Shown here in pieces: positions 7,849 through 50,660 of a stretch of DNA of 64,000 nucleotides (within the stretch, counting starts at the first letter, position 1; every line of letters starts with the position of its first letter). The position numbers were made by a program, and so were the translations under genes. A model generated the notes under the pieces. The model was given only the letters and a program-made list of their open reading frames with translations, was not told where the DNA came from and ran no database searches. This stretch comes from Actinomycetales bacterium. GTDB lineage: Bacteria > Actinomycetota > Actinomycetes > Actinomycetales > Dermatophilaceae. Where the stretch lies: NCBI GenBank assembly GCA_002748155.1, contig PDRO01000011.1:1-64000 (forward strand), read 5' to 3'.

Positions 7849-9564
7849 ATGAGCCAACCCACGACGCCACCAGAGTCCCCCGAGACTGCCGGGATCTCCG
7901 CTGAGAGCACCGACACCACCGAGACCTCCGAGACAACCAAGACTCCCGCTGAGACCGCAGGGACCTCCGCTGAGATTGCAGAGACCTCCGCTGAGACTGC
8001 AGAGACCTCCGCCGAGACTGCAGAGACCTCCGCCGAGACTGCAGAGACCTCCGCCGAGACTGCAGAGACCTCCGCCGAGACTGCAGAGGCCTCCGCCGAG
8101 GCAGCCGAGACACCAGCGACCCCCGCAGTGCCACAGGACCCCGTCACGCCGGAAACCCCCGCCACACCGCAAGACTCCGATGCCCAGGATTCCGGCACCT
8201 CGCCGCAGCCGGTCCGGCCACCGATCCCGTCCCCGGCCGAGCTGGCTGCGCACACGCCGCCAGCGGCTCCGATGCCCTCGCCCGCCCTTTTCGCGGCATC
8301 GGCCGCCCCACGGGCTGCATCGGCTTTCGGGCGTGTCGACGACAACGGCGTCGTCTACGTCAAGGTCGAAGACGGCGAACGGGAGGTCGGGTCTTACCCG
8401 GGCGCGTCGGCGGCCGCGGCCCTCGCCTACTTCGGTCGGAAGTACGAGGAATTGGCCGCTGCAGTGGTCCTGCTGCACCAGCGCGTGGACCAGACCGACA
8501 TCCCGACCAAGGAAGCCACCGACTCCCTGGCCAAGTTACGCGAACAGATCGGTCAAGCCCGGGTGGTCGGCGATCTGGCAGCTCTGCAATCCGGGCTCGA
8601 CGACATCGACGCCGCGATCGAACGACGCCGCGAATCCGAGGCAGCCGCACGGGCCGAGGCGAAGGCTGCGGCGACCGAACGTCGCGAGTCCTTGGTCACC
8701 GAGGCCGAGCGAATCGCAGCCCAACCAGAGCAACGCATTCAGTGGAAGGCCAGCGGCTCTCGGATGCGCGAGCTCTTGGACGAGTGGAAGAGCGCCCAAC
8801 GCAACGGCCCACGGATCGACAAGGACGTCGAAACCGCACTGTGGCATCGCTTCAGTGCGGCCCGAAACGGCTTCGACAAGGCACGACGCACCCATTTCGC
8901 CAGACTCGACGCCGCGCACGGCGAGGCACGTCAGGCCAAGGAGAAACTCGTCGCCGAGGCCGAGCGTCTTGCCAAGAGCCGCGACTGGGCAGTCACCGCC
9001 GGCGCCTTCAAACGACTCATGGACGATTGGCGCCGGGCCGGCCGAGCCAACCGAAGCGACGACGACGCCTTGTGGGCCCGTTTCAAGACGGCACAGGACA
9101 CCTTCTTCGCAGCCAAAGACGCGGTCGTGCAAGCCCAAGAGGAGACCTACCGCGCCAATCTGACGGTTAAGGAAGCACTCCTGGCCGAAGCCGAAGCCAT
9201 CTTGCCGGTCACGGACCTCGAAAAGGCCAAAGCCGCACTTCGGGTGATCCAGGACAAGTGGGACAAGGCCGGCCGAGTGCCCCGCGCCGATCTCGATCGC
9301 ACCGAGCGGGCCCTCCGCCGGGTCGAGCAGGCCGTCCGGGACGCCGAGGACAAGCGCTGGAGTTCGTCCAACCCGGAGGCCGCAGCCCGCGCCAGCAGCC
9401 TGGTCCAGCAGCTCGAGAAGGCCGTCGCCGGGCTCGAAGCGGATCTTGCGGCCGCCCAGGCGACCGGCAACGCCACCAAGGTCGCCGAAGCCGAGGCTGC
9501 CCTCGCCGCCCGCCGGCAATGGCTGGAGCAGGCCCAGTCAGGGCTGGCGGAATTCGGCGGCTGA
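7849..9564 (+). CDS. DUF349-domain protein with repetitive N-terminus
   Basis: This 571-residue protein is of unproven function. Residues 1-150 are low complexity, Thr/Ser/Glu/Ala/Pro rich, with eight tandem 7-residue units of AETAETS type at about residues 34-89. A short conserved stretch VYVKVEDGEREVGSYPG comes next. At least three helical DUF349 repeats follow (for example WKASGSRMRELLDEWKSA, AGAFKRLMDDWRRAGR and VIQDKWDKAGRVPRADL). It ends in a coiled coil. The ATG lies one nt after the ppiB stop, so the ORF track start (7735) is too early. DUF349 proteins are common beside relA in actinobacteria, but no mechanism is established here. Confidence 0.85.
   Translation: MSQPTTPPESPETAGISAESTDTTETSETTKTPAETAGTSAEIAETSAETAETSAETAETSAETAETSAETAETSAETAEASAEAAETPATPAVPQDPVTPETPATPQDSDAQDSGTSPQPVRPPIPSPAELAAHTPPAAPMPSPALFAASAAPRAASAFGRVDDNGVVYVKVEDGEREVGSYPGASAAAALAYFGRKYEELAAAVVLLHQRVDQTDIPTKEATDSLAKLREQIGQARVVGDLAALQSGLDDIDAAIERRRESEAAARAEAKAAATERRESLVTEAERIAAQPEQRIQWKASGSRMRELLDEWKSAQRNGPRIDKDVETALWHRFSAARNGFDKARRTHFARLDAAHGEARQAKEKLVAEAERLAKSRDWAVTAGAFKRLMDDWRRAGRANRSDDDALWARFKTAQDTFFAAKDAVVQAQEETYRANLTVKEALLAEAEAILPVTDLEKAKAALRVIQDKWDKAGRVPRADLDRTERALRRVEQAVRDAEDKRWSSSNPEAAARASSLVQQLEKAVAGLEADLAAAQATGNATKVAEAEAALAARRQWLEQAQSGLAEFGG
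7948..8115 (+). repeat. Eight in-frame 21-bp repeats in the DUF349 gene
   Basis: The 21-bp unit encodes AETAETS. There are eight consecutive copies; four of them are identical at the protein level, and edge copies have drifted (AETAGTS, AEIAETS, AETAEAS, AEAAETP). The near-identity of the central copies suggests recent expansion by slippage. Confidence 0.95.
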
Positions 9565-25953: not shown

Positions 25954-26027
25954 TGGATGTGAAGGGACTCGAACCCCTGGCCTCTCGCGTGTGAAGCGAA
26001 CGCTCTAACCAACTGAGCTACACATCC
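25954..26027 (-). tRNA. tRNA-Val (anticodon CAC)
   Basis: The cloverleaf folds fully: acceptor GGATGTG/CACATCC, D-arm GCTC/GAGC, and anticodon stem TTCGC/GCGAG with loop TTCACAC (anticodon CAC). The T-arm is AGGGG-TTCGAGT-CCCTT. The discriminator is A at 25954, and CCA is not fully encoded. Confidence 0.96.
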
Positions 26028-29099: not shown

Positions 29100-29171
29100 T
29101 GGGCGATACTGGGTTTGAACCAGTGACCTCTTCCGTGTCAAGGAAGCGCGCTACCGCTGCGCCAATCGCCC
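29100..29171 (-). tRNA. tRNA-Val (anticodon GAC)
   Basis: Acceptor GGGCGAT/ATCGCCC, D-arm GCGC/GCGC, and anticodon stem CTTCC/GGAAG with loop TTGACAC (GAC). The T-arm is ACTGG-TTCAAAC-CCAGT. It is the last of three tRNAs transcribed in the order Gly-Cys-Val. Confidence 0.96.
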
Positions 29172-29202
29172 TCAGGTGCTGCTCCGCCTATGCGGGAGCC
29201 AG

Positions 29203-29273
29203 AGGTGGAGACGGGATTTGAACCCGTGTACGCGGCTTTGCAGGCCGCTGCCTCGCCTCTCGGCCACTCCACC
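29203..29273 (-). tRNA. tRNA-Cys (anticodon GCA)
   Basis: Acceptor GGTGGAG/CTCCACC, anticodon loop CTGCAAA (GCA), and T-arm ACGGG-TTCAAAT-CCCGT. It is the middle gene of the Gly-Cys-Val operon. Confidence 0.96.
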
Positions 29274-29293
29274 GTGAAGGCGGTCAACCTCCG

Positions 29294-29366
29294 AGCGGAC
29301 GACGAGTCTCGAACTCGCGACCTCAACCTTGGCAAGGTTGCGCTCTACCAACTGAGCTACGTCCGC
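29294..29366 (-). tRNA. tRNA-Gly (anticodon GCC)
   Basis: Acceptor GCGGACG/CGTCCGC, and anticodon stem CAACC/GGTTG with loop TTGCCAA (GCC). The T-arm is GCGAG-TTCGAGA-CTCGT. It is the first gene of the Gly-Cys-Val operon. Confidence 0.96.
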
Positions 29367-45526: not shown

Positions 45527-45748
45527 CGTTGGGGCGCTCTTTTCGTCGATGTGGGCAAGCGAGCCGGCCGCGGCAGCGACCGGCAGGACCGCAAGTCTAT
45601 GGGTGACCCGCCATCGATGTGATAACTGCCACACCACTTCCCCGAACCCGTCCTGAGGTATGTCGCCTGCGAGCCGGACCGGAGGGATCATCCATGACCC
45701 GGTGTGCATCCAGCGGCTGTCATCTCATCCGTGGCATAGGATCAAGAC

Positions 45749-47290
45749 ATGTCTACCGACTACCGTCAACGGGTCGGGACGTTGATCCGGGATGCCCGTC
45801 GGCACAAGGGCTTCACCCAGAGCGAGCTGGCCCGGCTGCTGGCCACCAGCCAAAGCGCGGTGGCCCGGATCGAGCAGGGGCAGCAGAACCTCTCCCTGGA
45901 GATGCTGGCCCGGATCAGCGAGGCCCTCGACTCCGAGATCGTCAGTCTCGGTCAGTCCGGTGCCCAGCATCTGCGGATCGTCGGGGGTCGCCCGTTGACC
46001 GGCTCGATCGACGTCAAGACCTCCAAGAACGCCGGAGTCGCCTTGCTGTGCGCCTCCCTGCTCAACCGAGGTCGTACGTGCCTGCGCAATGTCGCCCGGA
46101 TCGAGGAGGTCAACCGGATCCTCGAGGTGTTGCAGTCGATCGGGGTGCGCACCCGGTGGCTGCCGGAGAGCAGTGACCTGGAGATCACCCCTCCAGCCGA
46201 GCTGGACCTCGAGCGCATCGACATCGACGCAGCCCGTCGGACCCGGACCGTGCTCATGTTCCTCGGGCCGCTGTTGCACGACCACCGGTCGTTCCGTTTG
46301 CCCTATGCGGGTGGTTGCGACCTCGGCACACGCAGCGTCGAACCGCACCTGTCGGCGTTGCGCCCCTTCGGTTTGCGCGTCGAGACAACCCAGGGCTTCT
46401 ACGCATGCACGGCCGAAACACAGGTGCCGGCGAAGCCGATCGTCTTGACGGAGCGCGGTGACACAGTCACCGAGAACACCCTGCTCGCTGCGGCTCGCGT
46501 GCCCGGCACGACCGTGATCCGCAACGCCAGCCCGAACTACATGGTCCAGGACCTGTGCTTCTTCCTGCAGCAGCTCGGGGTGCACATCGACGGCATCGGC
46601 ACCACCACCCTACGGATCACCGGCTGCCCGGACATCAACGTCGATGTCGAATACTCACCCAGCGAGGACCCGATCGAGGCCATGAGCCTGCTCGCGGCGG
46701 CCGTGGTCACCGAGTCCGAGATCACCATCCGTCGCATACCGATCGAGTTCATCGAGATCGAGTTGGCCACTCTCGAGACGATGGGGATGCGCTTCGACAT
46801 CTCCGGCGAATACGCCGCAGCCAACGGTCGGACCCGCCTGGTCGACCTCACGACGATCCCCGGCCCCTTGCGCGCGTCGATCGACAAGATCCACCCGATG
46901 CCGTTCCCGGGCCTCAACATCGACAACCTGCCGTTCTTCGCGCTGGTCGGCGCGATGGCCCAGGGCCCGACGATGCTGCACGACTGGGTCTACGAGAACC
47001 GCGCCATCTACCTCACCGAGCTCACCAGACTGGGTGCGCGTGTGCAGTTGCTCGACCCGCATCGGGTGCTCATCGAAGGTCCGACCCGATGGCGTGCCGC
47101 CGAGGTCATGTGCCCACCTGCGCTTCGCCCCGGCGTCGTCATCCTGCTCGCCATGCTCGCCGCACCGGGCACCTCGGTGCTGCGCAACGTCTACGTGATC
47201 AACCGTGGCTACGAGCGCCTGGCCGATCGATTGAACCGGCTCGGCGCGACCATCGAAGTCTTCCGGGACCTGCACACCGACTACTACTGA
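45749..47290 (+). CDS. XRE helix-turn-helix fused to a MurA-like enolpyruvyl transferase
   Basis: This 513-residue protein has an XRE-type HTH at residues ~5-65 (RRHKGFTQSELARLLATSQSAVARIEQG). A complete EPSP-synthase/MurA-like domain follows. The Lys-Asn pair is in VKTSKNAGVALL (about 92-93), the MurA active-site Cys is retained in YAGGCDLGTRSVEPHL (about residue 190), and an Asp sits in FPGLNIDNLPFF. YENRAIYLTELTRLGA matches the MurA C-terminal motif. Either it is a peptidoglycan-precursor enzyme with DNA binding or a regulator that senses UDP-GlcNAc. Neither is established from sequence. It is monocistronic, divergent from the synthetase-like gene. Confidence 0.85.
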   Translation: MSTDYRQRVGTLIRDARRHKGFTQSELARLLATSQSAVARIEQGQQNLSLEMLARISEALDSEIVSLGQSGAQHLRIVGGRPLTGSIDVKTSKNAGVALLCASLLNRGRTCLRNVARIEEVNRILEVLQSIGVRTRWLPESSDLEITPPAELDLERIDIDAARRTRTVLMFLGPLLHDHRSFRLPYAGGCDLGTRSVEPHLSALRPFGLRVETTQGFYACTAETQVPAKPIVLTERGDTVTENTLLAAARVPGTTVIRNASPNYMVQDLCFFLQQLGVHIDGIGTTTLRITGCPDINVDVEYSPSEDPIEAMSLLAAAVVTESEITIRRIPIEFIEIELATLETMGMRFDISGEYAAANGRTRLVDLTTIPGPLRASIDKIHPMPFPGLNIDNLPFFALVGAMAQGPTMLHDWVYENRAIYLTELTRLGARVQLLDPHRVLIEGPTRWRAAEVMCPPALRPGVVILLAMLAAPGTSVLRNVYVINRGYERLADRLNRLGATIEVFRDLHTDYY

Positions 47291-50443: not shown

Positions 50444-50533
50444 CCGGTTCCACTTGCCAGCCGTCTCACCCCTGCGCATATCTGCACACCGGTTCCACTT
50501 GCCAGCCGTCTCACCCCTGCGCATATCTGCACA
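50444..50533. repeat. Two tandem 45-bp direct repeats
   Basis: A 45-bp unit starting CCGGTTCCACTTGCCAGCCG occurs twice back to back (50444 and 50489), followed by a partial CCGGTGCGG. It lies in the roughly 300-bp gap between the HAD gene and acnA. The copies look identical, implying recent duplication. The rest of the gap holds only the acnA terminator. Confidence 0.92.
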
Positions 50534-50660
50534 CCGGTGCGGCGAGGCAACCTCGCTCTGCCTCTCGTCACGAGATTTGTGACCAGTCAAGCGCTTACTC
50601 GCAAGGGGAGACCCGGGCGGGCTGGGGCAGGCCGGGCGGGCTGGAAGAGGCGGGACGGCT

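Follow-up and report, generated by a model that had tools for sequence, protein, structure and literature searches.

PutA, BirA and NadR are trigger enzymes, in which a single polypeptide combines an enzyme with a DNA-binding domain and controls the pathway it belongs to; we know of no trigger enzyme with a fused DNA-binding domain for MurA. How MurA is controlled has long been asked. Known layers of control are proteolysis, activator proteins and UDP-MurNAc feedback, and a MurA acting as its own transcription factor would add a further one. In the Pseudomonas MurA-LpxC control, the conformational state of MurA serves as a regulatory signal, and MurA is locked in the closed state by UDP-MurNAc, which feeds back (PMC9995270).

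The window analyzed here, a 64,000-nucleotide stretch of contig PDRO01000011.1 from an Actinomycetales bacterium of the Dermatophilaceae, carries a gene that joins a helix-turn-helix (HTH) domain of the XRE type to a MurA-like enzyme. We take SCO5998 (MurA2) of Streptomyces coelicolor to be the orthologue of this fusion protein. According to the excerpts of two accounts, SCO5998 was named MurA2 as one of two UDP-GlcNAc transferases, with a predicted DmdR1 site beside the gene (PMC12161575), and has a SigB-dependent promoter (PMC8346170); the same excerpts contain no mention of the HTH, of an operator or of relatives in which the protein is the sole MurA. A search of the open-access literature returned no paper on the HTH, operator or sole-MurA status of the fusion and none for the operator strings, and SCO5998 and SCO2949 appeared in passing mentions only. 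The gene and the parts of its product are as follows.

45749-47290, + strand: HTH-MurA fusion gene, a single ORF with an ATG start, 513 amino acids plus stop
45773-45940, + strand: XRE/HTH_3 DNA-binding domain, residues 9-64 (Pfam HTH_3, E 3e-12)
45845-45874, + strand: recognition helix T33-S-Q-S-A-V-A39-R-I-E42, of which residue 39 covaries with the operator
45941-45970, + strand: linker, residues 65-74, variable in sequence and nearly fixed in length
45971-47257, + strand: MurA (enolpyruvyl transferase) fold, residues 75-503, from profile and structure matches

The preliminary description of this locus had placed an HTH ahead of a complete enolpyruvyl-transferase fold, and this was confirmed by Pfam, NCBIfam, AlphaFold2 and Foldseek. 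Pfam HTH_3 matched residues 13-64 with 46.8 bits against a gathering cut-off of 23 (E 3e-12), and EPSP_synthase matched residues 79-495 (E 2.3e-43). The score for the NCBIfam MurA subfamily NF006873 passed its cut-off (324 versus 297), whereas the match to the MurA equivalog TIGR01072, although strong, fell below the curated cut-off (308.5 versus 392.7). The best NCBIfam match of the HTH, TIGR03070 (HipB-like), was also below its cut-off (46.2 versus 71.65). MurA structures ranked first in a phmmer search of the PDB. The AlphaFold2 model, for which an alignment of 50 sequences was the input, had a mean pLDDT of 90, with linker residues 65-69 below 50; with Foldseek, MurA filled the top ranks (1uae, TM 0.95 over the target), and NikO and AroA ranked lower. 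Among 107 distinct homologues, the HTH was about as conserved as the enzyme domain (mean entropy 0.65 versus 0.60 bits) and the linker had an identical length in 102. The Streptomyces loci among the homologues collected shared ~73-75% identity over the full length, HTH included. A chance HTH match was rejected, since almost all close homologues found have both domains in one chain. Three other MurAs (L161-L163), with matches reaching into the HTH region, had no HTH recognisable by eye. In one genome (G045:C1:1261843-1263368) the fusion gene is split into two frames, by a sequencing error or a real frameshift.

In the window, the gene is flanked by genes for a thiolase, a fadB-like protein and an AMP-ligase, and on the convergent side by dxs and then an aconitase gene. 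The order thl-fadB-fusion-dxs was found in relatives, and in Streptomyces the aconitase gene lies divergently upstream. Within the window, no peptidoglycan gene was seen in the transcription unit of the fusion. Between the dxs and aconitase genes there is an exact 45-bp tandem duplication (50444-50538, 2.1 copies). Elsewhere in the window, a 21-bp unit is repeated 7.9 times at 7946-8111 (93% alike and probably translated as a 7-residue repeat), three tRNA genes lie in a row on the minus strand at 29100-29366, and a fourth tRNA gene is located at 25954-26027.

The 107 homologues were aligned to E. coli MurA, with agreement at the known E. coli positions, and the active-site residues of the window protein were located.

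46025-46030, + strand: Lys93-Asn94 (E. coli K22-N23), invariant in 107/107
46316-46318, + strand: catalytic Cys190 (E. coli C115), in the Cys-loop, invariant in 107/107
46451-46468, + strand: E235-R-G237-D-T-V240, replacing the E. coli UDP-GlcNAc loop K160-V-S-V-G-A165; E, G, D, T and V invariant in 107/107
46922-46924, + strand: Asp392 (E. coli D305), invariant in 107/107

The Cys-loop YAGGCDLGTR, the Lys-Asn pair and the Asp, which the preliminary description had read as kept, are thus present, and the equivalents of R91, R120, H125, R331, R371 and R397 are invariant as well. Around the UDP-GlcNAc site the family departs from E. coli MurA: K160 is replaced by E, S162-V163-G164 by G-D-T, A165 by V and D369 by P in all 107 sequences, P121 by T or S, and D123 mostly by E. 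The canonical loop (K160/S162-V163-G164) and D369 are therefore absent from the fusion family. In E. coli MurA, the altered loop positions presumably bind the nucleotide moiety of UDP-GlcNAc. D369 is a fosfomycin contact in MurA (PMC4062475). In a tree with other MurAs the fusion proteins formed their own well-supported clade on a long stem; this clade alone was used, the Asp/Cys labels of the non-fusion MurAs in the tree being unreliable. Judged by these residues, the fusion is a protein of MurA-like chemistry with a remodelled nucleotide pocket, and the invariant E-x-GDT-V loop suggests that the nucleotide is bound in a different manner.

Such a pocket raises the question of which substrate is used. 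The invariant loop, the change of D369 to P, the long stem branch and the TIGR01072 score below cut-off would all fit an enzyme half whose acceptor is another nucleotide or nucleotide sugar, in which case the protein would not be a peptidoglycan MurA. The loop, the D369 change and the profile score also count against a plain MurA assignment, in that a fusion living beside a second MurA could have a different affinity or even a different substrate. The distribution of the fusion makes a different acceptor improbable: many closed genomes with MurB have AroA and the fusion, and no further MurA candidate. All of 120 genomes of the window's family, assigned to the Dermatophilaceae in the GTDB sense from named loci, had a TIGR01072 match, and only 34 had one exceeding the cut-off (canonical MurA); in 53 of the 120, the window's own genome not counted, the single match was the fusion. 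In closed genomes that are 99-100% complete (G015, G051, G092, G094, G102, G118, G125, G132, G297 and G487), PF00275 detected AroA and the fusion and nothing else; G067 had extra PF00275 pieces that are AroA-like in appearance. MurB was present in every closed genome tested. In a Nocardioidaceae-like family the fusion was found in 61/61 genomes, 42 of which had nothing else (in one of these, G546, the fusion lies in two contig-end pieces). Streptomycetaceae-like genomes carried the fusion and a second MurA, and the genus g43, sampled at G043, lacked the fusion but had two other MurAs.

The preliminary description had left it to be checked whether the genome has a separate canonical murA. No other MurA was found in the window's genome (1.7 Mb), but its assembly is 75% complete, and complete relatives were used instead. 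In closed genomes that have MurB and no MurA other than the fusion, the latter should be functional and essential, and the simplest reading of the gene content is that it performs the MurA step, often as the only MurA, in two actinobacterial families. Many relatives (L111-L139) have a further MurA in which Asp replaces the catalytic Cys (PGGDAIGSRGLDLH), a type that is known from Mycobacterium and is fosfomycin-resistant, and others an additional Cys-type MurA (GGCRIGDRPI). The fusion always has Cys, and the Dermatophilaceae thus mix Asp and Cys kinds of MurA.

Directly upstream of the fusion start codon lies an 18-bp palindrome, TATCTCA-N4-TGAGATA. With at most 3/14 mismatches it was present upstream of 104/107 homologues, in nearly every case with its end 9-13 nt from the start codon, whereas shuffled upstream sequence had on average 6.7 mismatches at best. 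After the addition of 80 short loci, 79 of them readable, the palindrome was found in 139/146 distinct homologues. A TANNNT -10 element, typically ending ~6-7 nt before the start codon, was located 4-14 nt before the start in 106/107. Such spacing predicts a leaderless transcript. The TA at the right edge of the palindrome is the start of the -10 element, so that the operator overlaps its own promoter; we infer from its place between -35 and -10 that it has the geometry of repression. A role of the palindrome as an RNA structure was rejected, because transcription is predicted to begin downstream of it. In the window, the two elements are as follows.

45721-45738, + strand: operator site CATCTCATCCGTGGCATA, left half ATCTCA intact, right half degraded, 3/14 mismatches
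45737-45742, + strand: -10 element TAGGAT (TANNNT), overlapping the operator edge, 6 nt before the ATG

The recognition helix of the window protein (TSQSAVARIE) is of the common type, and L005, from the other genome of the same genus, has an intact palindrome, CATCTCACAGACGAGATA. The degraded right half-site in the window is a point against self-regulation; regulation in this strain may be weak, and the general claim rests on the family.

The strict operator pattern was then searched for in 80 whole genomes, and the sites were compared with gene coordinates. It was found in 34/42 genomes with the fusion and in 0/38 without it (Fisher p 3e-15); every site was at the fusion's own start, one per genome, and no other target was found in the 80 genomes. 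A wider regulon was rejected, since one-mismatch sites away from the fusion start occur at about the same frequency whether or not a genome has the fusion. The operator of a global regulator was likewise rejected, because there is one site per genome, only in fusion genomes, and it covaries with the fusion HTH.

This covariation is centred on residue 39 of the recognition helix, which by alignment we take to correspond to Gln33, a classical specificity residue, in the 434 repressor. Where residue 39 is T or G, base 3 of the operator is A (AACTC..GAGTT) in 17/17 cases; where it is A, N, H or V, base 3 is T or G in 122/122 and never A (p 4e-22, relatedness ignored). On the protein tree, the A state of the operator required at least four changes. 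Across 89 full-length sequences, none of the 513 columns had higher mutual information than residue 39, and its helix neighbour, residue 36, came second. When the recognition helix is rewritten, the palindrome is gone (5/5, against 2/141 otherwise). These five are L190, L193 and L211, with TGTDIEQIE-like helices (G082, G102 and G116, respectively), L213 with STTESTVERIE (G097), and L167 with TQPSAV (G021). The preliminary description had named a degenerate HTH across homologues as what would speak against its reading; in most homologues the HTH is instead intact, and it changes in concert with a private operator. We conclude that the fusion HTH almost certainly reads its own promoter. The palindrome could in principle belong to another regulator and the fusion HTH be idle, and the SigB promoter and predicted DmdR1 site of the S. 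coelicolor gene, as given in the excerpts (PMC8346170; PMC12161575), would agree with this. A single site per genome that occurs only with the fusion, covaries exactly with fusion residue 39 and is lost when the fusion helix is rewritten makes an idle HTH highly improbable.

Two observations weigh on the other side. In a small clade (L014, L041) the helix is kept and the operator is degraded, and in G082, G102 and G116 the fusion persists as the only MurA with a rewritten helix. The latter genomes indicate that catalysis and DNA binding are separable, catalysis being indispensable and regulation dispensable.

Taken together, the fusion is probably a working MurA that also regulates its own transcription, and this self-regulation is most likely autorepression. 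The protein would act as a UDP-GlcNAc enolpyruvyl transferase, catalyzing the first committed step of peptidoglycan synthesis, and would bind the palindrome as a dimer, thereby blocking RNA polymerase, so that the MurA level would be set by the concentration of free protein. In many Dermatophilaceae and Nocardioidaceae it would do so as the only MurA, and in Streptomyces it would work beside a second one. The preliminary description had offered a trigger enzyme, or a second MurA with a DNA-binding tether. An active enzyme is indeed to be expected from its sole-MurA status, and the tether covaries with an operator; as a "second" MurA the description does not hold, for the fusion is often the only one.

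The self-regulating MurA can be imagined in two versions. The liganded state might also change operator affinity, through UDP-GlcNAc or through UDP-MurNAc feedback that closes the two-domain fold: the apo or UDP-MurNAc-bound protein would repress and the substrate-bound form release the DNA, or the reverse. A putative ligand-gated trigger enzyme of this kind is plausible, if short of probable. The union of HTH and enzyme in one chain with a linker of nearly fixed length, and the reported locking of MurA by UDP-MurNAc (PMC9995270), favour it, but the low-confidence start of the linker in the AlphaFold2 model speaks against a rigid allosteric link. Alternatively, the HTH might sense the amount of MurA alone, ligands being without effect, and the fusion would be a compact means of holding an essential enzyme at a set level. 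The single private target per genome, with no other target seen, agrees with such a concentration sensor, as does the loose coupling suggested by the first part of the linker; the almost fixed linker length (102/107), and the closure of MurA on its ligand, a state already used as a signal in Pseudomonas (PMC9995270), argue against it. We regard ligand-independent sensing as possible and hold it tentatively.

If the self-regulating MurA is ligand-gated, the only MurA of many species in two families would read the UDP-GlcNAc/UDP-MurNAc state and adjust how much MurA is supplied, by way of a single private operator. Fosfomycin is an antibiotic that targets MurA, and inhibitors locking the conformation of the enzyme could alter its expression as well. 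The present analysis provides a defined operator and specificity residue, and lineages whose helix has been rewritten serve as natural knock-outs of the regulatory half.

Compared with known systems, the fusion shares with canonical MurA (E. coli type, TIGR01072) the fold and the catalytic Cys, Lys-Asn, Arg and Asp residues, but has an N-terminal HTH, a private operator, the E-GDT-V loop and P for D369; it forms a deep separate clade that scores below the TIGR01072 cut-off. The Asp115-type actinobacterial MurA (Mycobacterium-like, fosfomycin-resistant) has the same fold and coexists with the fusion in some relatives; unlike it, the fusion keeps the Cys in 107/107 and carries an HTH. With XRE regulators of the HipB-like type it shares the HTH fold and a palindromic operator, its HTH being joined to an enzyme domain instead. 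The Pseudomonas MurA-LpxC control acts by protein contact, whereas the fusion is predicted to act by DNA. The fusion resembles PutA, BirA and NadR in having enzyme and DNA-binding domain in one protein, with ligand gating putative in its case.
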